Part shown: positions 9,662 to 63,102 of the stretch, piece by piece
How the letters are laid out: every line of letters begins with the position of its first letter
Numbering within the stretch: the first letter of the stretch is position 1
Assembly: GCF_900110645.1 (NCBI RefSeq)
Contig: NZ_FOFB01000004.1
Coordinates: 1 to 64,000, forward strand
DNA from: Neolewinella agarilytica
GTDB lineage: Bacteria > Bacteroidota > Bacteroidia > Chitinophagales > Saprospiraceae
Reading direction: 5' to 3'
DNA: 64,000 nucleotides
The notes under the pieces: generated by a model
The model's database searches: none
Told to the model about the DNA's origin: nothing
The model's input: the letters and a program-made list of their open reading frames with translations, nothing else
Program-made: the position numbers and the translations under genes

Positions 9662-10096
9662 ATGAAGAACAAAGAAGTTATTCGGGAGGGAGAGGGCGAA
9701 AATTACAATTACTCACAGGACCACTGTTTTATTAAGCTGTCTTCCCACAGGACCAATGGAGAGTTGTCTTTTGTGGAAGACACACTAAAGCCTGGCTTTT
9801 ATTTGGGTCGGCACCATCATAAAATCATGACGGAAGTCTTCTATATTCTCGAAGGAGAAGTGAAGTTGATTTTTGATGATGAGACCATCGTGGCGAAACC
9901 CGGTGATACGGTTACGGTGCCCCCGAATGTCTGGCATGCGGCCAGTTGTGAAAAAGGTGGGAAGATGCTTTCCATTTTCAAGGACGGTCAGTTTGACCTG
10001 TATCTGGAACGCTTGTCCGGAATGACCGACAGCGATTTTGCAGACGAGGCATTAATGCGCGCCGTTTCGGCCAAGTTTGATATTTACGGAGAATAG
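9662..10096 (+). CDS. Small cupin-domain protein
   Basis: 144 residues forming a single cupin barrel. Motif 1 is GRHHHKIMTEVFYILEGEV, with the His cluster and Glu expected to bind a metal ion. Motif 2 is PGDTVTVPPNVWHA, with the final His ligand. Small cupins of this type include sugar isomerases, dioxygenases and small-molecule sensors, and the sequence does not decide between them. It follows the methyltransferase gene closely and is probably in the same transcript. Confidence 0.8.
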   Translation: MKNKEVIREGEGENYNYSQDHCFIKLSSHRTNGELSFVEDTLKPGFYLGRHHHKIMTEVFYILEGEVKLIFDDETIVAKPGDTVTVPPNVWHAASCEKGGKMLSIFKDGQFDLYLERLSGMTDSDFADEALMRAVSAKFDIYGE

Positions 10097-10146
10097 GAAA
10101 AGAAGGAGGCGCCTGGCTTCACCTTGCTTCTTACCGGAGAATCCTC

Positions 10147-10195
10147 TGCACCTGCGGCCGCGCCTGATGAGAACTGAGGCGCGGCCGCAGGTGCA
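10147..10195. repeat. Palindromic pair of the dispersed TGCACCTGCG element
   Basis: An 18-nt arm starting TGCACCTGCGGCC (10147-10164) is repeated as its exact reverse complement at 10178-10195, giving a perfect GC-rich hairpin with a 13-nt loop. A further single copy (TGCACCTGCGTACTGCGCCC) lies at 10247-10266. The gap 10097-10555 otherwise contains only the upstream region of rpsL. Confidence 0.8.
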
Positions 10196-10481
10196 GTGGG
10201 AAGAACCAGGGAGCAATGGAGGAGGGTAGGGGATGGTTCCCTTCCCTGCACCTGCGTACTGCGCCCAATCCACCGTCAGGATGAAGCGGGCATCCGAAAC
10301 TTATGGCTCTGGAAGAGACCTTATATATAGGTCTTCCCGAAACAAGCCGTTGGTAGCGCTAATTGGCTGATTTGTAGCTGAAAATGCCTATTTCCTGGTT
10401 CTCGATTGGTCCTGGTGACATTATCTGAAAGGAAAATCTTCGTAAAGACATTTTGTGCTAGGAATTATCCGGATAAGTGCT

Positions 10482-10489
10482 TACCTTTG
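10482..10489 (+). promoter_or_regulatory. Probable -7 box of the rpsL promoter
   Basis: TACCTTTG fits the Bacteroidota -7 consensus TAnnTTTG and lies 66 nt before the rpsL start codon. The best -33-like TTG is at 10453-10455, 26 nt away, longer than the usual 17-23, so the upstream element is weak. Confidence 0.45.
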
Positions 10490-10555
10490 CGCTCGCTTTT
10501 CAAGGAGGTAGGCCTCTGGTAAACAAAAAAAAGCGCTACTAAAGTTAATAAACGT

Positions 10556-10930
10556 ATGCCTACAATTAACCAACTTGTGCGTAAAGGGCGCAAGCAAATC
10601 AAGGAGACGAGTAACTCACGTGCACTGGACGCCTGTCCACAAAAGCGCGGTGTTTGTACACGTGTATACACCACTACTCCCAAGAAGCCGAACTCGGCGC
10701 TGCGTAAAGTAGCTAAGGTTCGTCTTACGAACGGAATTGAGGTAATCGCTTATATCCCGGGAGAGGGTCACAACCTGCAGGAACACAGTATCGTACTGAT
10801 TCGCGGAGGTCGTGTAAAGGATCTTCCTGGTGTACGTTACACCATCGTTCGTGGTGCACTCGATACGGCCGGCGTTGCTGACCGTCGTCAGGCTCGCTCT
10901 AAGTACGGCGCCAAGCGTCCTAAGAAATAA
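10556..10930 (+). CDS. rpsL: 30S ribosomal protein S12
   Basis: 124 residues, full length. S12 lies at the decoding centre and monitors codon-anticodon pairing. The conserved [18 protein letters not shown] and [16 protein letters not shown] loops are intact, with the unsubstituted lysines that correlate with streptomycin sensitivity. It is the first gene of the str operon, preceded by a TACCTTTG box, and is followed 78 nt later by rpsG. Confidence 0.97.
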
Positions 10931-11008
10931 TTCAATTAGTAAGATGAGTACCCTTTAGTAGGGGCTTATTGGTGTTCGCTCTGCGGCCACCATCTGAAGC
11001 AAAAAGCT

Positions 11009-11485
11009 ATGCGTAAAAGAAAACCAAAAGTCCGGGTCATTGCACCCGACCCCCGTTACGGTGATCCAATGGTGACCCAGTTCGTTAACATGCTGATGTT
11101 CTCCGGTAAGAAGAGCACGTCTTTCCGTATCTTCTATGATGCGATGGATATCATCAAGGAGCGTGTTGCCAGCGAAGAAATTGACGAGTATGAAGTGTGG
11201 AAACGCGCTTTGAACAACGCCATGCCACAAGTTGAGGTACGCTCTAAGCGTATTGGTGGTGCTACTTTCCAGATTCCTACGGAAATCCGCGCTAAGCGTA
11301 AGATGTCCATCGGAATGAAGTGGGTTATCAAATTCGCCCGTCAGCGTTCCGGTAAGGGCATGGCGGAGAAGCTGTCCTCTGAGTTGCTGGCCGCCAGCCG
11401 CAATGAAGGCCTTGCCGTTAAGCGGAAGGAAGACACCCACAAGATGGCGGAATCTAACCGTGCATTTGCCCATTACGGGAGATAG
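11009..11485 (+). CDS. rpsG: 30S ribosomal protein S7
   Basis: 158 residues, normal S7 length, with the N-terminal MRKRKPKVR arm, the FVNMLMFSGKKS helix region and the conserved C-terminal NRAFAHYGR. S7 nucleates assembly of the 30S head on 16S rRNA and contacts the E site. Its TAG stop is also the first unit of an inverted repeat array that fills the gap to fusA. Confidence 0.97.
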   Translation: MRKRKPKVRVIAPDPRYGDPMVTQFVNMLMFSGKKSTSFRIFYDAMDIIKERVASEEIDEYEVWKRALNNAMPQVEVRSKRIGGATFQIPTEIRAKRKMSIGMKWVIKFARQRSGKGMAEKLSSELLAASRNEGLAVKRKEDTHKMAESNRAFAHYGR

Positions 11486-11557
11486 TCCTGATAGTATGGT
11501 AGTAACGGCAGCATAGTTCTGTTGCTACTACCATACGATCATTACTGTCAAACTATC
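11481..11557. repeat. Inverted short-unit array between rpsG and fusA
   Basis: Units related to TGATAGT and ATGGTAGT form one arm and their complement the other. GATAGT (11481-11486) pairs with ACTATC (11552-11557), and GTATGGTAGTA (from 11494) pairs with TACTACCATAC (to 11536). The array begins inside the rpsG stop codon. In mRNA it would fold into a long two-tier hairpin. No T-tract follows, so it need not terminate transcription. Confidence 0.7.
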
Positions 11558-11592
11558 ATTTCTATTATACTTCAATACTAAATCCTCCTGCC

Positions 11593-13725
11593 ATGGCAAC
11601 GGATCTTAAATTCACCAGAAACATCGGTATTGCCGCGCACATTGACGCCGGTAAGACGACGACAACTGAGCGTATCCTTTACTACACCGGTATCAGCCAC
11701 AAGATCGGCGAAGTACACGACGGTGCCGCTACCATGGACTGGATGGAGCAGGAGCAGGAACGTGGTATCACCATTACTTCTGCCGCTACCCACACGAACT
11801 GGAAGTGGAAGAATAAAGACTACGTTTTCAACATCATTGACACCCCCGGTCACGTGGACTTTACCGTAGAGGTAAACCGTTCCCTCCGTGTACTCGATGG
11901 TCTGGTATTCCTTTTCTGTGCCGTATCTGGTGTAGAGCCTCAGTCGGAGACCAACTGGCGTCTGGCTGACAACTATAAGGTACCCCGTATCGGATTTGTA
12001 AACAAGATGGACCGTTCCGGTGCAGACTTCCTCGCTGTTGTAAAAGACGTGGAGGAGAAGCTGGGCTCTAAGTCTATTCCACTGCAGATTCCAATCGGTG
12101 CCGAAGAGACTTTCAAAGGCGTGGTTGACCTTATCACGATGCAGGCCATCGTGTGGAACGAGCACGATCAGGGTATGACCTTTGAGGTTATCGACATGCC
12201 TGCCGACCTGGAAGACACCGTTAACGAATGGCGCGAGAAACTTCTCGAAGCCGTCGCTGAATACGATGAGTCTCTGTTGGAGAAGTACTTCGAAGATCCA
12301 GACTCTATCACCGTTGAGGAAGTACGCAAAGCCGTACGCGACGCCGTAACGGACGCCGCCTTCGTTCCTATGATGTGTGGTTCTGCCTTTAAGAACAAAG
12401 GTGTACAGGCAGTACTTGATGCTGTTTGTGCTTACCTCCCCAGCCCGCTGGACATTCCACCGGTTAAGGGTACCGATCCTGACGATGAGGAAAAGATCCT
12501 CGAACGTGCACCTTCTGTAGACGAGCCGTTTGCAGCCCTTGCCTTCAAGATTGCCACGGACCCATTCGTTGGCCGTCTGGCCTTCATGCGCGTTTACTCT
12601 GGTGTACTGGAAGCAGGTTCTTACGTAAAGAACACTCGCTCCGGCAACAAAGAGCGTATCTCTCGTCTCTACCAGATGCACGCTAACGAACAGCAGGCAA
12701 TTGACAAGGTAGAAGCCGGTGACATTGCTGCAGCCGTTGGTTTCAAGGACATCCGTACGGGTGATACCCTTTGTGATGAAAAGCACCCAATCGTGCTGGA
12801 GTCTATGGTATTCCCTGATCCTGTAATCGCGGTAGCCGTTGAGCCTAAGACGCAAAAAGACCTCGACAAACTGGGTATGGCTCTGGCCAAGCTCTCTGAA
12901 GAGGATCCGACCTTTACGGTTCGCTACGACGAAGACACCAACCAGACCATTATTGCTGGTATGGGTGAGCTTCACCTGGAGATCATCGTTGACCGCCTCA
13001 AGCGTGAGTTTAAGGTTGAAGCCAACGTTGGTGCGCCGATGGTAAGCTACAAGGAAGCATTGTTCACAACCGTTGAGCACCGTGAGCGTCTCAAGAAGCA
13101 GTCCGGTGGTTCTGGTCTCTTCGCAGACATGAGCTTCACCCTCGGCCCAGCCGATGAGGAGTTCCTCGAAAGCGAAGACTTCAAGAACGGTAAGGAAAAC
13201 CTGCAGTTCGAGTGGGCCATCGTTGGTGGTGCTATCGACAAGAACTACCAGAAGCCAGTGAAAGACGGCTTCAAGTCAATGATGAAGAACGGTATTCTTG
13301 CCGGCTACAACATTGACAGCATGAAGGTGAAAGTATTCGACGGTGGTATGCACTCCGTTGACTCGAAGCCACTGGCCTTTGAACTTTGTGCAAAGGAAGG
13401 TTTCAAAGCTGCCGCTAAGCAGTGTAACCCGAAGTTGCTCGAGCCAATCATGGAAGTAGTTATCGTAACTCCTGAAGAGTACACGGGTAACGTGATCGGT
13501 GACCTTAACCGTCGTCGTGGTCTGCCGAAAGGACAGGAAACCATGAACGGTGGCGCTATTCGCATTACCGCTGATGTACCCCTGGCAGAAATGTTCGGCT
13601 ACGTAACTGACCTTCGTACCATCACCTCTGGCCGTGCGAACTCCAGCATGACCTTTGATCGCTTTGCCGAAGCCCCTAAGGGAATCGCTGAAGCAGTAAT
13701 CAAGGAAGCCAAAGGCGAAGCATAA
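11593..13725 (+). CDS. fusA: Elongation factor G
   Basis: 710-residue translocase GTPase that moves tRNA-mRNA through the ribosome and helps recycle ribosomes. Domain I carries the P-loop [15 protein letters not shown], switch [17 protein letters not shown] and [10 protein letters not shown]. Domains II-V follow, including [18 protein letters not shown] and the C-terminal [20 protein letters not shown]. It starts ATGGCAACG at 11593. As usual in Bacteroidota, tuf does not follow and rpsJ is next. A strong hairpin lies just after the stop. Confidence 0.97.
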
Positions 13726-13738
13726 TTGATCAATCGTT

Positions 13739-13774
13739 CTCCCACTCTTCCGGCTGCCCGCCGGAGAGTGGGAG
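13739..13774 (+). terminator. Strong hairpin between fusA and rpsJ
   Basis: CTCCCACTCT plus CCGGC pairs with GCCGG plus AGAGTGGGAG: 15 bp with one bulged T and a TGCCC loop. The following bases (TTCTTAACTC) are only weakly T-rich, so it could be a partial terminator or an mRNA processing/stability hairpin separating the str and S10 parts. Confidence 0.55.
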
Positions 13775-13841
13775 TTCTTAACTCTAAACGACTCCCGGAA
13801 AGCCGGTACAGTCCATTTTTATTTGAAAATTCTAATCTGGC

Positions 13842-14150
13842 ATGAATCAGAAAATTCGCATCAAACTGCGTTCTTACGATCATAACCTCGTAGACAAGTC
13901 TACCGAGAAGATCGTCAAGACCGTCAAGAACAGTGGGGCCATCGTAACCGGCCCGATTCCGCTGCCCACCGAAAAGGATATCTATACTGTCCTGCGCTCG
14001 CCGCACGTCAATAAGAAATCCCGGGAGCAGTTCCAATTGCGCACTCACAAGCGCCTGATCGAGATCTACACCCCCAACCAAAAAACGGTGGACGCGCTTT
14101 CAAAGCTCGAACTCCCCTCTGGTGTAGACATTCAGGTGAAGCTGACCTAA
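13842..14150 (+). CDS. rpsJ: 30S ribosomal protein S10
   Basis: 102 residues with the canonical start [20 protein letters not shown] and the conserved [21 protein letters not shown] loop. S10 binds the 30S head and also acts as NusE in antitermination. It is the first gene of the S10 operon, 116 nt after fusA, with the strong hairpin in between. Confidence 0.97.
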
Positions 14151-14306
14151 TCAGTTTTATCTACCTCCGTCACGCTACCATTTGACACTTCAAATAGGTA
14201 GACTTTTTAATAACTGTTCCCATCTCACGGCCAGGCCGTGAAATCGGAATGTTTTGTTGCCCGCTACCGGAAAATCCCGGAATGGCGACGAATAAATCCA
14301 AGACCA

Positions 14307-14927
14307 ATGAACGGAATTATTGGTAAGAAGATCGGAATGACTTCCATCTTCGACGAAGCAGGCCGCAACGTCGCCTGTACCGTTATCGAGGCCGGTCCCT
14401 GTGTAGTAACTCAGGTGAAGACCGACGATACGGACAATTATAATGCTATCCAGCTTGCCTATGGTGAGCGTCGTGAGAAAACGATGAGCCGCCAATTGAA
14501 CGGCCACTTCAAAGCTGCCGGCACCACGCCGAAGGCCGAAGTCGTTGAGTTTCGCGATATGGTAGCTGACAAAGCTCTCGGTGATACCATCACCGTGGAT
14601 GAAGTCTTCGCTGAAGGTGACATCTGTGTAGCCGTTGGAACTTCCAAGGGTAAGGGCTTTCAGGGTGTAGTTAAGCGTCACAACTTTAAGGGTGTGAACG
14701 ATGCTACTCACGGTCAGCACAACCGCCAGCGTGCACCGGGTTCTATCGGTGCTGCCTCTTACCCCGCCAAAGTATTCAAAGGAATGCGTATGGGTGGTCG
14801 TGATGGCGGCGGACGGGTAAGCATCAAGAACCTGAAGGTTCTCAAGATGTTCCCAGAGCGTAACCTTATTCTGGTCAAAGGAGCCGTTCCCGGCCCCAAA
14901 GGCGGAACCGTAATCCTCCACAAATAA
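14307..14927 (+). CDS. rplC: 50S ribosomal protein L3
   Basis: 206 residues starting [15 protein letters not shown]. The in-frame ATG at 14238 would add 23 residues not found in L3, so 14307 is chosen. The conserved loop near the peptidyl-transferase centre is present ([20 protein letters not shown]). L3 initiates 50S assembly. A two-tier hairpin occupies the gap to rplD. Confidence 0.96.
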
Positions 14928-14932
14928 GCCCG

Positions 14933-14981
14933 TATTCGCCATCACAATACTTCTCCGCCGGAGTATTGACGCCTGCGAATA
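14933..14981. repeat. Two-tier inverted repeat between rplC and rplD
   Basis: Outer arms TATTCGC (14933-14939) and GCGAATA (14975-14981) enclose inner arms AATACT and AGTATT, with CCG/CGG at the tip. It starts six nt after the rplC stop. It resembles the other operon-gap hairpins in architecture but not in sequence. Confidence 0.6.
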
Positions 14982-14996
14982 GCAAAATAAAATAAA

Positions 14997-15623
14997 ATGA
15001 AACTTCAAGTTCATAGCGCACAAGGTTCTGGTACGGGTCGCGAAGTGGAACTGCCCGAAAACATTTTCGGTGTAGAGCCCAACGAGCACGCTGTTTACCT
15101 GGCCGTTAAGGCTTACCTGGCCGCTCAGCGTCAGGGTACGCACAAAGCCAAAGAACGCGGCGAAATTGCCGGTTCTACCAAGAAACTGCATAAGCAAAAA
15201 GGTACTGGTGGTAGCCGTAAGGGTGACATCAAGAACCCTCTCTTCCGTAGTGGTGGCCGGGTCTTCGGTCCTCGCCCCCGCACCTACGGTCTTAAGCTCA
15301 ACAAGAAAGTTCGTCAGCTCGCCCGCGCTTCTGCTTTCTCCGCCAAGGCTACTGCTGGTAGCATCAAGGTGGTGGAAGACCTGAAGTTCGACGCTCCTAA
15401 GACGAAAGACTACGTTTCTTTCCTCAACGCCCTTGGTGCTAACGAAGGTAAAGTACTCCTCATCACTGCTGAGCACGACCAGTTCGTCTACCGCTCCGGC
15501 CGTAACCTGCCGAACAACGCTATTGTATCTGCCGGTGAGGTAAACACCTACGACGTAATGAAGGCCGGTACGGTCATCGTTGCCGAAGGTGCCATCGCAA
15601 AGCTTAAAGAGCAATTTGCTTAA
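14997..15623 (+). CDS. rplD: 50S ribosomal protein L4
   Basis: 208 residues with an L4 fold and the long RNA-binding loop (KKLHKQKGTGGSRKGDIKNP, then GGRVFGPRPRTY) that reaches the peptide exit tunnel. In several bacteria L4 also represses its own operon. Some annotators trim the N-terminus, but MKLQVHSAQGSGTGREVEL is the usual Bacteroidota start. Confidence 0.96.
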   Translation: MKLQVHSAQGSGTGREVELPENIFGVEPNEHAVYLAVKAYLAAQRQGTHKAKERGEIAGSTKKLHKQKGTGGSRKGDIKNPLFRSGGRVFGPRPRTYGLKLNKKVRQLARASAFSAKATAGSIKVVEDLKFDAPKTKDYVSFLNALGANEGKVLLITAEHDQFVYRSGRNLPNNAIVSAGEVNTYDVMKAGTVIVAEGAIAKLKEQFA

Positions 15624-15660
15624 CAGTCAGCCGCCCCCAGGGGCATAAACTCTAATCATC

Positions 15661-15957
15661 ATGGCTAAGACCATTCTCATCAAGCCCGTTGTGTCCGAGA
15701 AAGCTGAACTGCTCTCTGAGGTACGCGCCCAGTACACTTTCGTAGTGGAAAAGACGGCTAACAAAATTGAAATCCGTAATGCCGTCGAGGCACAGTACGG
15801 TGTATCCGTTGACCGCGTTAATACCGCGATCATGCCGGGTAAAACCAAAAATAGATCGACCAAGTCCGGACTTATCCGTGGCCGGGTACCTGCCTTCAAG
15901 AAGGCAATCGTTACTCTGGCGGACGGTGAGACCATCGACCTGTATAACGAACTATAG
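15661..15957 (+). CDS. rplW: 50S ribosomal protein L23
   Basis: 98 residues. L23 sits at the exit of the peptide tunnel and is the docking site for SRP and trigger factor. The conserved KPVVSEKAELL start and YTFVVEKTANKIEIRNAVE core are present. The TAG stop is the first unit of the following inverted array. Confidence 0.96.
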   Translation: MAKTILIKPVVSEKAELLSEVRAQYTFVVEKTANKIEIRNAVEAQYGVSVDRVNTAIMPGKTKNRSTKSGLIRGRVPAFKKAIVTLADGETIDLYNEL

Positions 15958-16032
15958 TCCTGGCAGTCTGGTAGTCCTGTAGACGGTCACGCAAGTGTAG
16001 CGGTCTGCAAAATTACCAGATTGCAAGACTAT
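15955..16032. repeat. Inverted octad-like array between rplW and rplB
   Basis: Units of about 8 bp (AGTCCTGG, CAGTCTGG, TAGTCCTG) form the left arm. TAGTC pairs with GACTA at 16027-16031, and TCTGGTA (15967-15973) pairs with TACCAGA (16014-16020). The array starts exactly at the rplW TAG stop, as the rpsG array does, and both share the phrase ATAGTCCTG. Confidence 0.7.
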
Positions 16033-16126
16033 CATATTAATCAACGATGGGTGGGGAGCCACCGTTTACGGTCGATCGTAAACAAGTGCTTTTGCTCCGA
16101 GATTCATCGTACTAATTTGTGCAATA

Positions 16127-16963
<837 letters not shown>

Positions 16964-16966
16964 CCC

Positions 16967-17239
16967 ATGGCACGTTCGCTAAAGAAAGGCCCCTACGTTT
17001 TCCACCGTCTCTACGACAAAATTGTAAAGGCACAAGAAGGTGGTGGCCGTAAGGGTATGATCAAAACCTGGTCACGCTCTTCCATGATCATTCCTGATAT
17101 GGTAGGTCTGACCATCGCCGTTCACAATGGTAAAACCCACGTCCCCGTCTACGTTACGGAGAACATGGTAGGTCACAAACTCGGTGAGTTTGCTCCTACG
17201 CGTTCCTTCCGCGGCCACGGTGGCAAGAAGGGTAAGTAA
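16967..17239 (+). CDS. rpsS: 30S ribosomal protein S19
   Basis: 90 residues, starting [19 protein letters not shown], with conserved [16 protein letters not shown] and [17 protein letters not shown]19 binds the 30S head with S13. The gene is three nt from rplB, but the next gene, rplV, is 314 nt away across a repeat-filled gap. Confidence 0.97.
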
Positions 17240-17240
17240 G

Positions 17241-17307
17241 GTTACAAGTTGCAGGTTGCAGGTTCCGTTAGGGCTTGCAACCTGCAACCTGAAACCTGCA
17301 ACCTGAA
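17241..17307. repeat. Inverted GCAACCT heptad array after rpsS
   Basis: The left arm is built of the unit GTTGCAG and the right arm of TGCAACC units (TGCAACC, TGCAACC, TGAAACC, TGCAACC), so the two arms pair into a hairpin about 30 bp long. It starts one nt after the rpsS TAA. The same unit builds the arrays at 18706-18888 and 21960-22077 in other gaps of this operon. Confidence 0.8.
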
Positions 17308-17316
17308 AAATCATTT

Positions 17317-17411
17317 GGCGCAGCCGCAGGTGCAGTGCATGAGTTGAAAAGCAAAGAAGGCTTGTCCGCATTGCTATTTAACCGTACCTTTGCACCCGCG
17401 TTCGCGCCCCC
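17317..17411. repeat. Divergent pair of dispersed TGCACC(T/C)GCG elements
   Basis: A reverse copy (GGCGCAGCCGCAGGTGCA, 17317-17334) and a forward copy (17389-17411, TTTGCACCCGCGTTCGCGCC) lie 54 nt apart in the rpsS-rplV gap. The forward copy overlaps the -7 box described separately. Confidence 0.6.
17362..17392 (+). promoter_or_regulatory. Candidate internal promoter upstream of rplV
   Basis: TTG at 17362-17364, a 20-nt spacer and TACCTTTG at 17385-17392 match the Bacteroidota housekeeping promoter (TTG-N17-23-TAnnTTTG) well. It would let rplV and the downstream genes be transcribed independently of the S10 promoter, after the repeat array inserted behind rpsS. Confidence 0.55.
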
Positions 17412-17553
17412 TTTAATTGAGTGAAGGTAGAGTACGTCCTCGCCGGAGTAAAGGGAAAAGGTCAAAGGAGGAAGGGGAGACCCTTATTCCTTTCCCTCTT
17501 CAACCCTTATTCGCGCCCGATTTACTAACCCGTTCCCTCGAAATAATCCAATA

Positions 17554-17949
17554 ATGGTAGCAGTATCAAGTTTAAATAGCATTCCGATGTCGGTCCGCAA
17601 GATGCGGCTCGTCGTCGATCTGATCCGCGGTAAGCAGGTCGGAGAAGCGCTAAGCATCCTGGAATTCAGTAAGCAGGAAGCAGCGATCTGGCTGAAGAAG
17701 AATCTTCTCTCCGCCATCGCCAACTGGGAGTTCAAAACCGGTGGCACCGAAAGTGCTGACGAGTATGATCTCATCGTTTCTGAAGTATTCGCCGATGCAG
17801 GTGCTCAGATCAAGCGTTTCCGCCCCGCTCCTCACGGCCGTGCTCACCGTATCCGTAAGCACAGCTGTCACATCACCATCAAAGTATCTAACACCAAGCA
17901 ACTCCCATCGGAGGCTGGTGTAGAAGCTGAAACCGAAACCGCAGAATAA
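17554..17949 (+). CDS. rplV: 50S ribosomal protein L22
   Basis: 131 residues. L22 lines the peptide exit tunnel. The globular part ([20 protein letters not shown]) and the hairpin tip ([19 protein letters not shown]) are conserved. The C-terminus is extended by an acidic tail ([12 protein letters not shown]). The rpsC start codon lies one nt after the stop. Confidence 0.95.
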
Positions 17950-17950
17950 C

Positions 17951-18700
17951 ATGGGACAGAAGACTAATCCAATTGGTAACCGTCTGGGTTACATTCGCGG
18001 CTGGGACAGTAACTGGTACGCTGACAAAGATTACGCCGCTAACGTCATCGAAGACGAGAAGCTGCGCGCTTACCTCGGTAAGCGTATTGAAAAGGGCGGT
18101 ATCGCCCGCGTGATCATTGAGCGTACCCTCAAGCGGGTTACCCTCACGATTCATACCAGCCGTCCCGGTATCATTATCGGTAAAGGTGGTAAGGAGATCG
18201 ATCAGCTGCGCGAAGAACTTCGCCGTCTGACCAAGAAAGATATCCAAATCAACATCATTGAGATCCGCAAGCCTGAGCTGGACGCCAACATCGTTGCCGA
18301 AAGCGTTGCTAAGCAGATCGAAGCCCGTATCAACTACCGCCGGGCGATCAAGACGAGCATCCAGGCCACCATGCGTGCCAGCGCTGAGGGCATCAAGATC
18401 CGCATCTCTGGTCGTTTGAACGGTTCTGATATGAGCCGTACGGAAGAGTTCAAGGAAGGGCGTACGCCACTCCACACTTTCCGTGCTGATATTGACTACG
18501 CACATAAGGAAGCACACACGGTCTACGGCCGTATTGGTATCAAAGTATGGCTCTGTAAGGGTGAAGTACTTGGTAAACGCGACCTGAACCCGAACGCTGG
18601 TCTGTCGACCAAAGGCAATGACCGCGGTGGACGTGGTGGCCGTGGCGGACGCGGTGGCCGTGGTGGCAATGACCGCCGTGGCGGTGGTGGCCGTCGGTAA
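17951..18700 (+). CDS. rpsC: 30S ribosomal protein S3 with RGG-rich tail
   Basis: 249 residues. It has an N-terminal KH domain ([20 protein letters not shown]) and the S3 C-domain ([38 protein letters not shown]). S3 sits at the mRNA entry tunnel and contributes to ribosomal helicase activity. The last 30 or so residues are an arginine-glycine repeat tail ([19 protein letters not shown]), longer than in E. coli S3. A 466-nt gap filled with repeats follows before rplP. Confidence 0.96.
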
Positions 18701-18705
18701 AACCT

Positions 18706-18888
18706 GATTACAGGTTGCAGGTTACAGGATGCACTCCTTTTGTGCCGATGGTAAGTTGCTCTTTGAATCAGAATACTAGAATACAACTCTTTAGCGTAAG
18801 CTAAACTACTCAGCGGCAAGCCCGTAATTTGCAACCTGCAAACCTGCAACTTTCAACCTGCAATCTGCAACCTGCAACTTGTTCCTTG
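18706..18888. repeat. GCAACCT heptad array after rpsC
   Basis: Left arm: ACAGGTTGCAGGTTACAGG at 18710-18728. Right arm, about 110 nt on, has units TTGCAAC, CTGCAAA, TTTCAAC, CTGCAAT, CTGCAAC and CTGCAAC. It begins six nt after the rpsC stop. The rest of the gap to 19166 has no gene; a TACCTTTG box lies at 19079-19086, 81 nt before rplP. Confidence 0.75.
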
Positions 18889-19078
18889 CCCACGACTCGA
18901 CCGCCTCTGGCGAGAGAATAACCGAACAGAAATCATCAAACCCTGGTTTGCGCTGATTTCTACCCCTGGAAGCAGGGCCGTGCGCAACGAGAACTCGTTG
19001 ACGCGGCCTTGCTTTCTACTTTTGACAACTAAATGGAAAGTTTGCCATGGCAAACTTCCCTATGTCGGAAGAAAATCT

Positions 19079-19086
19079 TACCTTTG
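19079..19086 (+). promoter_or_regulatory. Candidate -7 box upstream of rplP
   Basis: TACCTTTG fits TAnnTTTG and lies in the long rpsC-rplP gap, just where a repeat array interrupts the operon. No clear TTG is found at the right distance upstream, so this is tentative. Confidence 0.3.
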
Positions 19087-19166
19087 CCCCGCTCTAACGA
19101 GGACCTCGGGGAAATTCGGGGCGTAAACGACCGGTTTTTGGGCGTTTATCCACTAAACTTTAAGCA

Positions 19167-19586
19167 ATGTTACAGCCGAAAAGAACTAAATACCGGAAGC
19201 AGCAGAAGGGTCGTAATCGCGGCCTTGCGCAGCGTGGTAATAAGGTTGACTTCGGTTCCTTTGGCCTTAAAAGCCTTGGAACGGGACGTATCACCAACCG
19301 CCAGATCGAAGCAGCACGTATCGCTATGACTCGTCATATGAAACGTGAAGGTAAAGTCTGGATTCGCATTTTCCCTGATAAGCCTATCACCAGCAAGCCG
19401 TTGGAAGTACGTATGGGTAAGGGTAAGGGTGCCCTTGATCACTGGGTCGCTAATGTTCAGCCCGGACGAATTATGTTCGAGCTCGATGGTGTTACCCGGG
19501 AAGTAGCTGAAGAAGCTCTTCGCCTGGCAGCCCAGAAGTTACCCGTACTGACCAAGGTGGTTACCCGCCTGGATTACGTAGGCTAA
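19167..19586 (+). CDS. rplP: 50S ribosomal protein L16
   Basis: 139 residues. L16 is positioned near the A site and organises the 25S-region RNA of the large subunit. It starts [19 protein letters not shown], with conserved [12 protein letters not shown]-like ([20 protein letters not shown]) and MGKGKGA motifs. An earlier in-frame ATG does not exist nearby, so 19167 is secure. Confidence 0.96.
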
Positions 19587-19652
19587 CAAGTATATAAACG
19601 CTTTTAATAGATGAGTCCGCCGGCTTGCTGCGCGGCATAACAATAAAATCTG

Positions 19653-19913
19653 ATGGCGAGTAATAAATCAGTCGAGTTGGGTAACGCCTCTGACGCAGAT
19701 CTGCAGGATCAGCTGAATGAGACGACCGTCAGCCTCGAAAAAATGAAATTCGATCATACCGTAAATGGTATCGAAAACCCGCTGCGACTGCGGGAGGTAC
19801 GTCGAGACATCGCACGTATCAAAACCGAAATTCGTCGCCGTGAGCTGGCTGCTCTCTCTCCGGAGGCTGCCGCAAAGCGGGACCGTATCCTAATCCGTCG
19901 TCGTAAAAAGTAA
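19653..19913 (+). CDS. rpmC: 50S ribosomal protein L29
   Basis: 86 residues, slightly longer than usual (about 65-70). A helical hairpin typical of L29 is visible (DLQDQLNETTVSLEKMKFDH, then NPLRLREVRRDIARIKTEIR). The C-terminus carries an extra basic segment (RRRELAALSPEAAAKRDRIL). L29 lies at the tunnel exit near L23. rpsQ starts six nt after the stop. Confidence 0.93.
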   Translation: MASNKSVELGNASDADLQDQLNETTVSLEKMKFDHTVNGIENPLRLREVRRDIARIKTEIRRRELAALSPEAAAKRDRILIRRRKK

Positions 19914-19919
19914 GCGAAC

Positions 19920-20348
19920 ATGACCAACGAGGAAAATAAAGAGCAGGAAGGCGGCGTCGTCGAGAACGTGACCGCTGCTGCAGAAACCGTAGCTGAGGCT
20001 GCTGGTGAAGTTGTAGGTGCTGCCGTTGAGGCCACCGAAGCTGTTGTTGAAACAGTAACGAACTACTTCGCACCAGAACCGGAAGCTGAGGATACTGGCC
20101 GTAATGATCGCAAGACGCGTATCGGTATTGTTGCCAGCAATAAGATGGACAAGACAATCTCCGTTGAGATTCAGCGTCGTCTTCAGCACCCCATTTACGG
20201 TAAGTACGTAAAAAAATCAAAGAAGCTCATCGCCCATGATGAGAACAACGAATGCCAGATTGGTGATCTAGTTCGCATCATGGAAACTCGTCCACTGAGC
20301 CGCCGCAAGCGCTGGCGTCTGGTAGACGTGATCGAGAAAGCCAAGTAA
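19920..20348 (+). CDS. rpsQ: 30S ribosomal protein S17 with acidic N-terminal extension
   Basis: 142 residues, against about 85 in the family. The C-terminal 82 residues are a complete S17 OB-fold ([49 protein letters not shown]). Residues 1-58 form an extra Glu/Ala/Val-rich segment, probably helical ([20 protein letters not shown]). No ATG lies between 19920 and the core, and the start is six nt after rpmC, so the extension is probably translated. The source of the extra sequence is unknown. Confidence 0.92.
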
Positions 20349-20372
20349 TCTTAATCGTTTAAATAGCTAGAC

Positions 20373-20741
20373 ATGATCCAGCAGGAATCACGGTTGCGCG
20401 TAGCCGACAACAGCGGTGCTAAAGAAGTACTCTGTATTCGCGTACTGGGCGGCTCGAAGCGCCGCTACGCCAGCATTGGCGACCAGATCGTCGTAACGGT
20501 TAAGGAAGCTTCCCCAGGCGGTAACGTCAAAAAAGGCTCTGTATCTCGCGCTGTTGTAGTGCGGACTCGTAAGGAAATCCGTCGTAAGGACGGTTCTTAC
20601 ATCCGTTTTGACGACAACGCCGTAGTTCTCCTCAACGCTAACGAGGAGCCCCGCGGTACGCGCATCTTCGGCCCCGTGGCCCGCGAACTTCGCGACCGCG
20701 ACTACATGAAGATCGTTTCACTGGCCCCGGAAGTACTCTAG
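20373..20741 (+). CDS. rplN: 50S ribosomal protein L14
   Basis: 122 residues. L14 binds 23S rRNA at the subunit interface and is the docking site of the silencing factor RsfS. It starts [20 protein letters not shown] and ends [19 protein letters not shown], both canonical for the family. Confidence 0.97.
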
Positions 20742-20760
20742 GGCACCAATAATAACTCCA

Positions 20761-21120
20761 ATGGCTAACAAAACCTACAAGGATAAGCAGAAGCGCTTCG
20801 CGCCGAAGCTGAAAATCAAGAAGGGAGACATGGTCGTGGTCATCGCCGGTGCCGACAAAGACCGCTCCACGCCCCGTGAAGTCCTTCAGATCCTTCCCTC
20901 TGAAAACCGCGCTATCGTAGATGGCGTGAATATTCGCAAGAAGCACCAGAAACCAACGGAAACCGAAGCCGGTGGCATCGTTGAGAAAGCCGCTTCTATT
21001 CACATTAGCAACCTGATGCTGGTGGATTCTGATAACCAGCCGACCCGCGTTGGTCGTAAGGCCGGTGACAACGGAAAACTCCAGCGTTTCAGTAAGCGTA
21101 ACGGAAATATCATCAACTAA
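20761..21120 (+). CDS. rplX: 50S ribosomal protein L24
   Basis: 119 residues with a KOW motif ([20 protein letters not shown]). L24 is an early assembly initiator of the 50S. The stop codon overlaps the start of rplE by one base (TAATG), indicating coupled translation. Confidence 0.96.
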
Positions 21121-21686
21121 TGAGCTACACGCCAAGACTTAAGAAAAAGTACGACGAGGAAGTTCGCGACCAACTGAACGAACAGTTTGGCTACGCCAGC
21201 ACCATGCAGGTACCTCGTTTGCTGAAGATCTGTATCAACCAGGGAGTGGGTAAAGCTACCCAGGACCGTAAGTTGGTAGAGAACGCTGCTAAAGAAATGA
21301 CCCTCGTGGCTGGCCAGCAGGCTGTCATCACGAAGTCTAAGAAATCTGTCTCTAACTTCCGTCTTCGTGACGATATGGGGATCGGTGCTAAAGTTACCCT
21401 TCGCCGTGAGCGGATGTATGACTTCCTGGACCGTCTGATTTCTGCCGCTCTGCCACGTGTACGTGACTTCCGCGGTATCAACGACAAGAGCTTCGATGGC
21501 CGTGGTAACTACACCATGGGTATCACGGAGCAGATCATCTTTCCGGAGATCAGCCTCGATGATGTGGCTAACATCACCGGCTACGATGTCACTTTCGTAA
21601 CCAGTGCTAAGACTGACGCAGAAGCGTTGGCATTGCTGAAGGCCCTCGGTCTTCCATTCAAGAACCAAAATAACACGAACGCGTAA
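21120..21686 (+). CDS. rplE: 50S ribosomal protein L5
   Basis: 188 residues. L5 belongs to the central protuberance with 5S rRNA. The conserved [20 protein letters not shown] and [19 protein letters not shown] segments are present. It overlaps rplX and rpsN by one base at each end. Confidence 0.97.
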
Positions 21687-21955
21687 TGGCTCGTAAATCA
21701 CTCATTGCCCGCGAACGCAAGCGGGAGCGCATGGTCGCTAAGTATGCTGAAAAGCGTGCACAGCTGAAGGCCGAAGGAAACTGGGACGAGCTGGATAAGC
21801 TTCCCCGTAACTCTAACCCAATCCGTCTCCACAACCGTTGTGGAATTACCGGTCGCCCAAAAGGCTACATGCGTAAGTTCGGTCTTTGCCGGGTAAAGTT
21901 CCGGGAAATGGCCCTTGATGGAAAGATTCCAGGAGTCCGTAAGGCAAGCTGGTAA
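21686..21955 (+). CDS. rpsN: 30S ribosomal protein S14
   Basis: 89 residues, the long zinc-free S14 form: only isolated cysteines ([20 protein letters not shown]) remain and no CxxC pairs. The C-terminus [15 protein letters not shown] is canonical. It overlaps the end of rplE by one base. A heptad array starts within a few bases after the stop. Confidence 0.96.
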
Positions 21956-21959
21956 AGAA

Positions 21960-22077
21960 TTCAGGTTGCAGGTTTCATGTGGCAGGTTTCACTACCTCAA
22001 TGTCTCTCTGCTTCCCAATAACCTGCAATTTGCAACCCGCAACTTGCAAACTGCAACTTGCAACTTGCAACTTGCAA
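21960..22077. repeat. GCAACTT heptad array between rpsN and rpsH
   Basis: The left arm (TCAGGTTGCAGGTTTC, then GGCAGGTTTC) is followed about 50 nt later by a right arm of perfect 7-bp units: CTGCAAT, TTGCAAC, CCGCAAC, TTGCAAA, CTGCAAC and three TTGCAAC. The arms are inverted. It fills most of the 183-nt gap between otherwise tightly packed genes. Confidence 0.8.
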
Positions 22078-22138
22078 CCTTTTATAACAGCTCCGGTAGT
22101 TCCCGAAGGGAAAACCACGGAGCGCAATTAATAGCAAA

Positions 22139-22549
22139 ATGGCCGTAACGGACCCAATCGCTGATTATCTGACCCGTATCCGCAATGCGCAGATCGCAGG
22201 TCACCGTGTCGTAATCATTCCAGCTTCCAAGACTAAGAAGCGGATGACAGAAATTCTGTACGATCAGGGATACATCCTGAAGTACAAGTTTGACGATGAA
22301 GCCGGTAAGGGCAAGCAGGGAGAAATCTCTATCGCTCTTAAGTATGAAAAGGACAGTAAGCGTCCCGTAATTCGTAAGCTCATTCGTGTTTCTAAGCCAG
22401 GGCTACGCCAGTACGTTGGAGCTGATGCACTTCCCCGCGTAATTAATGGCCTGGGTATTGCTATCGTTTCTACCTCTCACGGGTTGATGACGGACAAGCA
22501 GGCACGCAAAGACAATGTTGGAGGCGAAGTACTTTGCTACGTCTACTAA
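22139..22549 (+). CDS. rpsH: 30S ribosomal protein S8
   Basis: 136 residues with the canonical start ([20 protein letters not shown]) and ending ([20 protein letters not shown], then VLCYVY). S8 binds the central domain of 16S rRNA and in E. coli represses the spc operon through its own mRNA. Confidence 0.97.
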
Positions 22550-22635
22550 TCAAATTATAACTAACAAAGAATCACGCCTGCAGAAAAGGTTAGACTATCT
22601 GGTCGTTTTTCGTAAGGCAATTAAATCAACAGGAT

Positions 22636-23193
22636 ATGTCCAGAATTGGCAAGAATCCCATCAGCGTTCCCTCCGGTGTCACTATTGACATCAGCAAGGG
22701 GAATCTGGTTACCGTGAAGGGCCCTAAGGGGGAGCTTTCGCAGCAGGTAAACCCCGATCTGGGTGTTAACCTTGAAGATGGAACCCTTACGGTTACCCGT
22801 CCTTCTAACAGCAAGCGTCACCGGTCTTTCCATGGCCTGTACCGCAGCCTGATCGCGAACATGATTGTAGGCGTAACCGACGGTTACGAGCTGCAGCTTG
22901 AAATCGTAGGTGTAGGTTACCGTGCGGAAAACAAGGGCAACCTGTTGATCCTTACGCTTGGTTTCTCTCACCCTATTTACTTCATGGTTCCCCAGGAAGT
23001 GCAGGTAGAAGCCATCAGTGCGAAAGGTAAAGCACCGATCGTTAAACTGACGAGCAACGATAAGCAGCTCATCGGTCAGATCGCCGCTAAGATTCGCGCT
23101 TTCCGTAAGCCTGAGCCTTACAAAGGAAAAGGTATCAAATTTGTTGGTGAAGAACTTCGTCGTAAAGCTGGTAAGACAGCTGCTAAGGGCTAG
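22636..23193 (+). CDS. rplF: 50S ribosomal protein L6
   Basis: 185 residues with the two repeated L6 domains. It starts MSRIGKNPISVPSGVTIDI, with the C-terminal domain motif KPEPYKGKGIKFVGEELRRK intact. L6 lies near the sarcin-ricin loop. Confidence 0.97.
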   Translation: MSRIGKNPISVPSGVTIDISKGNLVTVKGPKGELSQQVNPDLGVNLEDGTLTVTRPSNSKRHRSFHGLYRSLIANMIVGVTDGYELQLEIVGVGYRAENKGNLLILTLGFSHPIYFMVPQEVQVEAISAKGKAPIVKLTSNDKQLIGQIAAKIRAFRKPEPYKGKGIKFVGEELRRKAGKTAAKG

Positions 23194-23231
23194 GATCTCT
23201 AATTCCCTGACGGGGTAAAAAAAAAGTAGCA

Positions 23232-23585
23232 ATGCAACTCACAAAACTCAAGCGGAGGAAGCGGATTCACAGCCGTGTTCGTAAGAAGATCTCTGGCACG
23301 CCGGAGCAGCCACGACTGAACGTCTTCCGTTCTAATAAATATATCTACGCTCAATTGATCGATGACGTCAACGGCGTAACCCTTGCACAGGCCAGTAGCT
23401 TTGAAGCTGCCGTTGCTAATGAAGGCAATAAAGCGGAACAGGCGGTTGCGGTAGGCAAGCTCATCGCTGAGCGTGCTACTGCCAAGGGCATCGAAAACGT
23501 TCTCTTCGACCGGGGAGGATATTTGTTTCACGGACGTGTTAAGTCCCTCGCTGATGGCGCCCGGGAAGGCGGCCTCAAATTCTAA
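23232..23585 (+). CDS. rplR: 50S ribosomal protein L18
   Basis: 117 residues. L18 carries 5S rRNA into the central protuberance. Basic N-terminus ([20 protein letters not shown]), conserved [18 protein letters not shown] and the C-terminal [20 protein letters not shown] are present. Confidence 0.96.
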
Positions 23586-23596
23586 ATAGCACAATA

Positions 23597-24166
23597 ATGG
23601 CTGATAACAGAAATTCAGGCGGCGGTCGCAACCGACGCGATAACAATCGCCGAGGTGGTAAAAATGACCAAGGCAACAGTTCTGAACCGGAACTACGCGA
23701 AAAGATGGTTGCCCTTAACCGGGTCTCCAAAGTAACTAAAGGTGGACGGACGTTCACTTTCGCTGCCATCGTTGTTGTAGGTGACGGTAAAGGCAAAGTA
23801 GGACATGGCATGGGTAAGGCCCGTGACATTTCTGAAGCTATCCAGAAGGCAACGGACACGGCTCGTAAAAGCATGATTAAAGTTCCACTGCACAAGGGTA
23901 CTATCCCACACGAGCAGCTCGGTAAGTATGGTGCAGGCAAAGTATTGCTCAAGCCCGCTTCTGAGGGTACCGGTGTAATTGCTGGTGGTGCTATGCGTGC
24001 TGTACTGGACATCGCAGGTGTTCACAACGTACTGGCCAAGTCACAGGGTTCTTCTAACCCACACAACGTGATCAAAGCCACCATCGATGCACTGAAAAAA
24101 CTCCGTAGCCCGATGGACATCGCTAAGCAACGGGGTATTTCCATGGAAAAACTGTTTGAAGGGTAA
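23597..24166 (+). CDS. rpsE: 30S ribosomal protein S5 with Arg/Gly/Asn-rich N-terminus
   Basis: 189 residues. S5 helps form the mRNA entry channel and affects fidelity. The dsRBD-like N domain ([20 protein letters not shown]) and the C domain ([33 protein letters not shown]) are conserved. The first 30 residues are an unusual low-complexity basic segment ([20 protein letters not shown]), similar in composition to the RGG tail of S3. Confidence 0.95.
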
Positions 24167-24234
24167 AAGGCACTTCGCTCAGTTTAACTACTGACGTAGC
24201 CGATTTCTTCTAATCAGTGTAACAACAAATCAAC

Positions 24235-24414
24235 ATGGCTAAGATAAAAATTACCCAGATCAAAAGTGTGATCGACCGCCCGAAGAAACAGAAGGCAACG
24301 ATCCTGGCCCTTGGTCTTAAGCGAATGCACCAAACCGTTGAACGGGAAAATACCCCCGTTATCATGGGTATGGTGAAGGCAGTAAGCCACCTTGTAAAAG
24401 TCGAGGAAGCATAA
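24235..24414 (+). CDS. rpmD: 50S ribosomal protein L30
   Basis: 59 residues, translated directly from the sequence: it starts [20 protein letters not shown], then [20 protein letters not shown] and [19 protein letters not shown]. This is the ferredoxin-like L30 fold with the [18 protein letters not shown] signature and normal length. It lies in the expected place between rpsE and rplO. Confidence 0.96.
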
Positions 24415-24581
24415 TCCTGTCCGTTAATTATCAATCCCTTTTGGCATCGCGCCTGACAGGGTGACATTAATATGACAGAAAGGCTTGCCTGGTACGTAAT
24501 TTGCATGGCGCTCCCTGAGCACCTCTTTGCATCCTGCGTCCGCGCCCTGAAAATGCTTCGTCTTTAAAAATAAATTCCATC

Positions 24582-25028
24582 ATGGAACTTAATAATCTCA
24601 AACCAGCCGCCGGCGCTACTAAGTCCGGCAAGCGAATCGCTCGCGGACAAGGCTCCGGCCGTGGTGGTACTTCCACCCGTGGACACAAAGGTGCCAAATC
24701 CCGTAGTGGTTACAAGCGTAAGCGCGGTTTTGAAGGTGGTCAGATGCCCCTTCAGATGCGTCTTCCTAAGCGAGGTTTCAACAGCCCGAACCGGGTTGCC
24801 TACGTTGCTTTCAACCTTGATCGCCTTCAGGCCATCAGTGAGAAGCACGGCCTGACGGAAATCTCTCCGGAAGCACTCTATACTGCCGGCATCATCAAGA
24901 AGAACGACCTGGTAAAGGTCCTCGCTACTGGTGAATTGACCGCTAAGCTCACGCTGACCGCTCACGCTGCCTCTGCTTCTGCTAAGGAAGCTATTGAAAA
25001 AGCTGGTGGTACTCTTACCATCGCCTAA
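24582..25028 (+). CDS. rplO: 50S ribosomal protein L15
   Basis: 148 residues. Basic N-terminal RNA-binding extension (RIARGQGSGRGGTSTRGHKG) and a C-terminal globular domain ending in EKAGGTLTIA. L15 is a late-assembly protein of the 50S. The 167-nt gap before it holds a copy of the dispersed element (TTTGCATCCTGCGTCCGCGC, 24526-24545). secY starts 12 nt after the stop. Confidence 0.96.
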   Translation: MELNNLKPAAGATKSGKRIARGQGSGRGGTSTRGHKGAKSRSGYKRKRGFEGGQMPLQMRLPKRGFNSPNRVAYVAFNLDRLQAISEKHGLTEISPEALYTAGIIKKNDLVKVLATGELTAKLTLTAHAASASAKEAIEKAGGTLTIA

Positions 25029-25040
25029 ACTCACTATCCC

Positions 25041-26414: not shown

Positions 26415-26450
26415 TCAGTCTCTACTGACGGGTTTTACTTAAACCCAGAT

Positions 26451-26484
26451 AAACGCCCTTTCCGATGTTTCGGGGAGGGCGTTT
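26451..26484 (+). terminator. Terminator of the S10/spc operon
   Basis: AAACGCCCT pairs with AGGGCGTTT around a TTCCGATGTTTCGGGG interior that itself partly pairs (CCGA/TCGG), followed by GTTATT. It lies 37 nt after the secY stop. Confidence 0.7.
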
Positions 26485-26575
26485 GTTATTCTGGGGCTGC
26501 TCGCAGCTAAGAGGTTTTCCCGCAGATGAGGAAGGAGGGAGGGGGAAGAGAAGGGCTCTGTTGCGCAGTTTTTTA

Positions 26576-26875
26576 CCACAGATTACTACATATTTTCACA
26601 GATTTAGGCACGGATTCAGGTCGCTACGTGATGGTGCTGTTACCGGGAAGAGAAGCGGAAATAGCGAAGACCAAACTTATGAATCCTAAAAATTCTACAA
26701 AAATCCTATTAATCCTAATCTATTAGCCTTGGGCCGCTGCGCAGCTATTTAACTACAGATTACCACTGATTGATGCACAGATTACAATCGCTTCGCGACA
26801 CGGCTGTTTTCGGAAGGAACGGAGGAGATGGATAAGTGTGAAGGGGTATTCTAATTCTATTAATTCTAATCACTA
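26576..26875. repeat. Composite of CACAGATT and AATCCTA short-unit repeats
   Basis: The gap 26485-26924 has no gene. It holds degenerate tandem units CACAGATTACTA / CACAGATTTAGG / CACGGATTCAGG (26577-26630), then AATCCTA-AAAATTCTA-AAAATCCT-ATTAATCCT (26682-26722), CCGCTGCGCAGC, more CAGATTACCACTGATT (26753-26788) and ATTCTA units (26850-26872). Similar phrases recur at 30598-30660, 30725-30760 and 35366-35413. Confidence 0.65.
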
Positions 26876-26924
26876 TTTTGGAAGACGTAATTTCCTGACC
26901 TAATCCACTTATAACCCTTTCCTC

Positions 26925-29434: not shown

Positions 29435-29552
29435 GAGGAAGGGGTAAAAAGCAGTGCGGTAAGCCCCCTTACGACACTTCTTCTCAATTAAACGACCAGA
29501 CACTCAACCTAAGGTGCCCACTTTACGTATCGCCAACAGCAATATCACTACT

Positions 29553-30353: not shown

Positions 30354-30381
30354 GCGATACTTGATAGGCGATATTTGATTG
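30347..30381 (+). repeat. GCGATAN heptad array at a stop codon
   Basis: Five perfect 7-bp units: GCGATAA, GCGATAC, TTGATAG, GCGATAT, TTGATTG. The first unit contains the last codon and TAA stop of the upstream lipoprotein gene. The unit is closely related to the heptads around the 21-nt core at 88-143 and 6072-6126. Confidence 0.75.
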
Positions 30382-63071: not shown

Positions 63072-63102
63072 AAGTGGGCAAGATAGGTAAGGATTCTATT
63101 TT

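Follow-up and report, generated by a model that had tools for sequence, protein, structure and literature searches.

The ribosomal protein gene cluster of Neolewinella agarilytica raises the question of why the gaps that follow five of its genes (rpsG, rplW, rpsS, rpsC, and rpsN) hold arrays of 7- or 8-nt units laid out in two inverted arms, and whether that layout reflects events in the RNA or in the DNA. The window, which is the whole stretch of DNA that was analyzed, comprises positions 1 to 64,000 of contig C34 of the 6.22-Mb genome (labeled G000). The arrays are a rich form of a known kind of sequence, intergenic heptamer and octamer simple-sequence arrays, and the explanation given slightly better than an even chance is DNA-level slippage in 7- to 8-nt steps combined with template switching and tolerated after stop codons. 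The observation made in a first-pass annotation of the window is confirmed, and its interpretation is partly supported. The five arrays of the cluster are the following.

11483 to 11541, plus strand: TAG stop of rpsG (11483-11485) and two-arm TAGTNNNG octamer array with arms at 11489-11511 and 11519-11541 (from sequence and inverted-repeat shuffles)
15955 to 16027, plus strand: TAG stop of rplW (15955-15957) and two-arm AGTCCTGG-like octamer array with arms at 15960-15984 and 16003-16027 (from sequence and shuffles)
17240 to 17308, plus strand: rpsS-rplV gap, AGGTTGC arm at 17240-17264 and GCAACCT arm at 17276-17308, immediately 3' of the TAA stop (from shuffles)
18708 to 18881, plus strand: rpsC-rplP gap, AGGTTGC arm at 18708-18731 and GCAACCT arm at 18841-18881, with a loop of about 110 nt (from shuffles)
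21963 to 22080, plus strand: rpsN-rpsH gap, AGGTTGC arm at 21963-21991 and GCAACCT arm at 22024-22080 (from shuffles)

All five gaps contained two inverted arms above the expectation from dinucleotide shuffles of the gap, which were scored for the best tandem of period 7 or 8 and for the best inverted repeat. Shuffles reaching the observed tandem and inverted-repeat scores numbered 6 and 11 of 1000 for rplW-rplB, 0 and 0 of 300 for rpsS-rplV, 0 and 2 of 300 for rpsC-rplP, and 0 and 0 of 1000 for rpsN-rpsH. The rpsG-fusA gap was significant as an inverted repeat (0/1000) and not as a tandem (91/1000), so the two-armed layout first reported for the five gaps is confirmed, in the case of rpsG mainly as an inverted repeat. 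Seven comparison gaps in the ribosomal cluster all had tandem scores that were matched by at least 21% of shuffles, and two of them also contained an inverted repeat (fusA-rpsJ, 7/1000; rplC-rplD, 25/1000). The TAG stops of rpsG and rplW do run into the first repeat unit, as had been noted in the window sequence. TAG also ends rpsG in 7 of 13 related loci (L031 to L035, L037, and L038) and rplW in 3 of 13 (L031, L034, and L043), and the rplW gaps of L031 and L034 held no significant array despite the TAG stop. Because this stop is found in orthologues that lack that array, its use as the first unit looks incidental. The rpsS arm follows the TAA directly.

Three different units had been distinguished in the five gaps. 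GCAACCT is indeed present in three of them; the words of the rpsG and rplW gaps, ATGGTAGT and AGTCCTGG, appear by eye to be variants of one octamer family, TAGTNNKG, so that there are two families in the five gaps and not three. Both families are dispersed, with 230 genome matches to TAGTNNKG (6 to the reversed pattern) and 227 to GCAACCT (0 to the reversed pattern). Wide spread of the GCAACCT family was rejected, as a search of 296 genomes from the phylum found a 20-mer of it in only 3, including that of the window. Loose clustering of GCAACCT units mainly picked up noise from coding sequence, and the family was therefore analyzed as two-arm pairs, drawn from the G000 sample (the window plus 800 kb more of the same genome, 864 kb in total) and from 11 of the 30 loci of a genome pattern search. 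Among GCAACCT arrays no more than 250 bp apart, 19 pairs (18 distinct) ran from G-arm to C-arm and none from C to G, with 7 and 6 pairs on the same strand and 33 arrays unpaired. When 16 loops of at least 15 nt (two from one element) were compared, only leftover units were common to them, as read from the matches, which argues against copying and pasting of the whole element; the earlier view that copy-paste elements do not explain the arrays therefore held for the 18 two-arm elements of this family. Composite elements were also seen in which 8-mer arms surround a core, GCTRCCGC...GCGGYAGC (46 sites, compared with 6 for the reversed control), for example, at G000:C27:385628-385738, C27:388072-388227, and C26:296250-296667, some of them with inner 9-mers like GCCTCCAAC.

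Arrays were far more frequent in gaps than expected by chance, as the first-pass annotation required of its proposal. In the G000 sample, 58/475 gaps contained an array, compared with 2.4 in shuffles, and when periods of 5 to 12 were scanned, 64 of 77 arrays had a period of 7 (39 arrays) or 8 (25 arrays). Length-matched coding stretches of the same sample contained arrays in 9/475 cases, with 6 as the commonest period. A set of nine genomes, consisting of G000 and eight congeners that were each represented by 220 kb (gaps of 30 to 1500 nt kept and other lengths dropped; n = 1433), had arrays of period 7 to 9 in 97 gaps, whereas shuffles gave about 2, or 0 to 1.3 gaps per genome. Octamers can outnumber heptamers in congeners (19 and 11, respectively, in G004), and no array was found in 107 gaps of G011. 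The third set comprised ribosomal clusters of other Bacteroidota, namely the best 80 of 450 matches (the 80-locus set; gaps of 25 to 1500 nt, n = 840), where 106/118 arrays had a period of 7 (78 arrays) or 8 (28 arrays). Arrays occupied 12/143 gaps in L031 to L040 (0.2 in shuffles), 4/215 in L041 to L056 (1.4), and 75/482 in L057 to L110 (3.4); three array-rich loci, L073 (11/13 gaps), L077 (8/15), and L064 (5/13), used different units. The best match of the RpsC protein by E value was in N. persica DSM 23188 (93% over 249 residues), with N. aurantiaca at 96% over 221 residues.

The arrays are concentrated after stop codons. Genes outside the ribosomal cluster were taken from a simple hexamer-model caller, which gives firm stops and approximate starts, and starts in the 80-locus set were taken from tblastn and are likewise approximate. 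With starts so defined, tandem-armed inverted repeats of the 80-locus set began at a median of 3 nt past the stop and ended at a median of 36 nt before the start, which agrees with the bias that had been predicted; 53/61 were nearer the stop and 5/61 nearer the start, and 47/61 began within 10 nt of a stop, compared with 9/61 that ended within 10 nt of a start. The corresponding numbers for G000 were 13/29 and 6/29. By gap type, arrays in the nine genomes occurred in 65/927 co-directional, 19/195 convergent, and 13/311 divergent gaps (divergent compared with the other 84/1122, p = 0.041). The number of array bases per kb was 18.1, 18.7, and 7.4, respectively.

Comparison of orthologous gaps, which was made between species, indicated that place and layout persist or recur while the word changes, in accordance with the original suggestion that the architecture is conserved and the sequence is not. 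The rpsG-fusA gap held five different arms in five loci, those of the window, L032, L033, L034, and L040 (inverted repeat reached in 0/1000 or 0/200 shuffles), and none in three, the short gaps of L035, L038, and L039. The gap of L031 was weak (30/200 shuffles), and short A/T-rich inverted repeats were present in L036 (4/200, with an additional A/T-rich tandem match) and L037 (29/200). In the rpsS-rplV gap, the word was GCAACCT in the window, L031, and L033 and TACGGTAG in L036, L038, and L039. The same gap of L034 contained no array between the stop and the common downstream sequence and is likely an empty site. Words also vary inside single arrays.

A further regularity is the order of the arms. 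Of the 42 inverted repeats with arrays in the nine genomes, 40 had more G than C in the first arm. Among tandem-armed repeats, the G-rich arm came first in 30/34 cases in G000 and 50/60 in the 80-locus set, compared with 29/68 for strong repeats without tandem arms in G000 (Fisher's exact test, 7e-6; ties dropped). In the 80-locus set, inverted repeats without tandem arms also leaned toward G-first (11/12), which counts against specificity to arrays there. Composition before start codons was considered as the sole cause of this order and was accepted in part, for co-directional and divergent gaps. Array-free co-directional gaps are C-rich before starts (C exceeded G in 387/503 right edges), and since this C-richness is general, these two gap types are not decisive. 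Array-free convergent gaps lack the skew: 81/156 of their 40-nt edges followed the order, whereas convergent arrays followed it by gap half in 20/22 cases and in 12/14 without the GCAACCT family (Fisher's exact test, 0.0004 and 0.02, respectively; ties dropped). The arms also paired better in register than when shifted by one unit in 53/63 elements, and pairing exceeded the mean of unit-permuted arms in 66/81. The cleaner repeat was the 3' arm in 36 elements and the 5' arm in 18 of the 80-locus set (12 and 9 in G000). A-C mismatches also exceed G-U in the 80-locus set, a pattern suggestive of greater aging of the 5' arm there.

Selection to preserve pairing in the RNA would be expected to leave more G-U than A-C mismatches on the sense strand. 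The aligner gave both mismatch types equal scores, and the nine-genome inverted-repeat test covers gaps of up to 700 nt (all but 76 of the 1433). Array elements with inverted-repeat scores of at least 15 in co-directional gaps of the nine genomes showed no G-U excess (48 G-U and 53 A-C), and those of the 80-locus set deviated in the direction opposite to that predicted from RNA selection (54 and 90; p = 0.003). Counts for all inverted repeats, array or not, with gaps longer than 600 nt cut, were 95 G-U and 80 A-C in G000 and 76 and 119 in the 80-locus set. The absence of an excess argues against selection for RNA pairing and gives no support to the role in mRNA stability or processing first proposed for the 3'-end hairpins, in which stems would protect or process ribosomal mRNA with pairing kept and sequence free. 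Such selected hairpins would accord with the adjacency of arrays to stops, the recurring layout, the smaller number of arrays in divergent gaps, and the strong predicted folding of the five array gaps (z scores of -3.8 to -6.4), but predicted folding is almost as strong in three of the seven comparison gaps (-3.6 to -4.2), the same gap has or lacks an array depending on the species, the 107 gaps of G011 yielded no array, and no Rfam match at the gathering threshold was obtained in window positions 10000 to 27000. With the mismatch counts added, selected RNA hairpins are regarded as unlikely. Ordinary transcription terminators that hold repeats by chance would also sit past stops and in convergent gaps, as the arrays do; however, none of 16 terminator-like sites in 11400 to 22200 overlapped an array arm (the scan admits loops of 3 to 8 nt only), and an arm order was present in tandem-armed repeats of G000 and not in its strong repeats without tandem arms. 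Terminators are considered very improbable.

Dispersal by an unknown mobile element, in which a transposase or other enzyme would carry arrays into the space after stops and leave them to decay, would account for families with hundreds of matches each, for the common core of some 8-mer arrays, and for the patchy presence of families across the genus, yet the GCAACCT elements have no common loop and words differ within one array. Nor did the Y1 transposase genes with readable flanks adjoin arrays. A RAYT transposase was not supported as the writer: the genome has five Y1 genes, and the flanks of the four that could be read (L151, L152, L153, and L155; no gene call covers the match at L154) hold other palindromes. 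By eye, these palindromes are GGCGCTTCGCGCC, GGACCTGGAGGTCC-like, GGAGCTCCGCTCC, and GCTGCTTCCAGCAGC. Genomes of the genus carry 1 to 7 Y1 genes, with a Spearman correlation to array density of 0.45 in the nine genomes (p = 0.23). Dispersal by an unknown mobile element is considered unlikely. An active writing process indifferent to sequence, in which a G/T-rich 3' end would fold back and extend at gene ends so that either strand begins with its G-rich arm, would make arm order a polarity of the process and not of the word. This reading draws on the order in convergent gaps, which have no start codon to produce a skew; it is judged distinctly improbable. As a candidate writer, the reverse transcriptase (RT) family PF00078 correlated with array density across the nine genomes (uncorrected Spearman 0.83, p = 0.006). 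Among the 13 genus genomes considered first, TAGTNNKG counts were 32 to 230 in the seven with RT and 1 to 26 in the six without, a split noticed post hoc. The association failed in eight fresh genus genomes (3, 5, 8, 70, and 142 with RT; 3, 6, and 226 without; p = 1.0) and stood at p = 0.06 over all 21, which are related genomes with RTs known from family counts, so RT carries low weight as the array writer. The RT of G000 lies at G000:C36:128433-129011. Loss of the palindrome nuclease SbcD was rejected as the cause, since SbcD was present in 13/13 genus genomes examined, although the match in G009, a genome 55% complete, fell below the cutoff.

Slippage with template switching and survival after stops is the most economical mechanism; distribution, turnover, arm order, and the absent G-U excess are the measured parts of this account, and the steps of origin are inferred. 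Strand slippage in steps of 7 to 8 nt would multiply a short word, and slippage loops of 7 to 8 nt are too long for ordinary mismatch repair. Template switching could then write the reverse complement nearby as a second arm and could later match the two arms to each other again. Arrays would persist where they do least harm, after stops and in convergent gaps, where they are found; they are less common inside coding sequence and in divergent gaps. With no selection acting on the word, drift would replace it even as layout and place recur, and the transcript hairpin would be a by-product. Some words (GCAACCT and TAGTNNKG) may also have been seeded at many loci, possibly by switching between distant arrays. 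Template switching has been described as a maker and repairer of hairpins by Monttinen and Loytynoja (PMC8794818) and in a study of Escherichia coli quasipalindromes (PMC7202029). The former propose that intrastrand template switching repairs stems and yields an asymmetry of G-C and U-A pairs; the order is the same as that found here, but it arises through G-U intermediates, which are not in excess in the arrays.

Several results weigh against this account. The congeneric and 80-locus comparisons caught neither slippage nor switching in the act, and local slippage does not account for the presence of GCAACCT and TAGTNNKG at many loci with unrelated loops. In octamer arrays of G000, adjacent words were identical in 5/94 pairs and next-but-one words in 16/46, an ABAB pattern not expected from one-unit slippage; this count pooled four anchors (TAGT, GACT, CATT, and CCAA) of 10 tried. 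An alternative count gave 7/75 and 11/53 (p = 0.08) in G000, and by that count neither the relatives nor the 80-locus set showed a difference. The register tests lean toward the observed pairing since arms were picked by best alignment, and the permutation test passed the 5% level individually in only 1/81 elements. The positive control of the mismatch test was weak, with 156 G-U and 123 A-C mismatches in non-array repeats of co-directional gaps in the nine genomes (p = 0.055) and 22 and 29 in the 80-locus set. The deficit of arrays in divergent gaps is modest, and density shows unexplained variation within the genus, where the number of array gaps per Mb ranges from 0 in G011 up to 105 in G004.

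A preference for heptamers and an intergenic location are shared with the STRR sequences of cyanobacteria, whose intergenic regions Jackman and Mulligan reportedly described in 1995 as variable but structured. The statement that no described system fits the arrays is not sustained, since kindred arrays are described in Rehm et al. 2015 (PMC4692102) and MacGregor 2015 (PMC4679880). The former reports heptamers in the gaps of two Xanthomonas genomes, where they form 70 and 75 convergent inverted pairs, near or overlapping stops, underrepresented between divergent genes, and, for GGGAATC, with the arm order seen here. The present arrays share 7 nt as the commonest unit length, convergent inverted pairs with the G-rich strand first, proximity to stops, and scarcity between divergent genes. 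They differ in that the Xanthomonas and Nostoc repeats (GGGAATC and GGGGA(C/T)T) were studied as one G-rich unit type per species, tied to G-quadruplexes, whereas here there are many units, octamers included, mostly without GGG. By inspection, GCAACCT, TAGTNNKG, GACTNNNT, CATTNNNN, and CCAANNNA usually lack GGG runs, and some arrays contain them (for example, AAGGGGTT in G008). Quadruplexes were rejected as a general cause on these grounds. In addition, gene context was common to both Xanthomonas species for 83% of repeats, compared with the turnover at orthologous gaps here. MacGregor describes TAACTGA arrays in Beggiatoaceae, Cyanobacteria, and five Bacteroidetes; these are also heptamers in gaps, including those inside ribosomal protein operons, and one Bacteroidetes genome has a reverse-oriented set right after a stop. 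They are direct repeats of a different unit that usually lie upstream of starts and share one orientation; the main genome has a single inverted case, and similar heptamers are rarely repeated there. Mrazek 2007 is cited in both papers for the finding that in most genomes no class is more abundant than heptamers, and by MacGregor for polymerase slippage as the proposed origin of long simple sequence repeats. Like REP/REPIN elements with RAYT, the arrays are dispersed extragenic inverted repeats in a genome with RAYT-like Y1 genes, but four of five such genes have palindromes of their own instead of array copies, and the inner sequence of the GCAACCT elements is not fixed (that family only; some 8-mer arrays have the common core). 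A literature search combining Saprospir, Lewinella, or Haliscomenobacter with repeats gave nothing on these arrays among the matches listed. New here are the many units without GGG, the turnover at one site, and the mismatch test without a G-U excess; the G-first order of inverted arrays is also counted as new, although Rehm et al. have it for GGGAATC.

Inverted repeats after genes are usually taken as RNA signals, and the arrays provide a large natural set in which shape is kept while sequence turns over. They therefore help to separate a mutational origin of hairpins from RNA selection, a question raised for RNA stems generally in PMC8794818. Since the patterns of position and orientation given in PMC4692102 for quadruplex-forming repeats hold for words mostly without GGG, a cause other than quadruplexes is needed. 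The ribosomal operons of Saprospiria and Chitinophagaceae supply aligned gaps for direct testing.

Five further arrays had been listed in the window. One is clear, one is moderate, two are weak and one-armed, and one was seen only by TRF.

57368 to 57459: two-arm AGTCNNNN octamer array with arms at 57368-57406 and 57421-57459, ending 4 nt 5' of the start of open reading frame 57464 (clear; 0/300 shuffles for both scores)
52399 to 52454, strand not assigned: two-arm GTCAGC-like array with arms at 52399-52424 and 52430-52454 (moderate; tandem 5/1000, inverted repeat 2/1000)
39761 to 39787: weak one-armed GGTAGTAT-like octamer array in a 34-nt convergent gap, best tandem at 39771-39787 (tandem 36/1000, inverted repeat 621/1000); this is the array placed at 39761
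63099 to 63139: weak one-armed CCTTAAT-like array, placed at 63103 before (tandem 37/1000, inverted repeat 464/1000)
30337 to 30379: one-armed GATANNC-like heptamer array crossing the stop of open reading frame 29514-30353, placed at 30347 before (two TRF rows only)

The gap at 30354 was not significant by shuffles (tandem 83/300, inverted repeat 246/300), and the TRF row at 30349-30379 begins before the stop. Nearby, repeats of the CACGCAGAGG and CACAGATT types surround GGCTGCTTYGCAGC hairpins at window positions 30400-30640 and 35379-35450. A second dispersed element, approximately GGCGCNNNCGCAGGTGCA and at times in inverted pairs, occurs in the window at 273, 6158, 10147-10247, 17326, 41863, 51064-51138, 57233, and 60852 and elsewhere in the G000 sample. 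A 9-mer of this element, GCAGGTGCA, had 166 copies in the 864 kb, of which 99 were intergenic, with about 3.3 expected per strand and 3 copies of a scrambled control. On the other strand, it can follow TACCTTTG, which we take to be a promoter-like box. In the rpsS-rplV gap, an inverted repeat related to GGCGCNNNCGCAGGTGCA was the best one in L031, L032, and L034, its sequence was also present in L033, and the array that adjoins it changes between loci.

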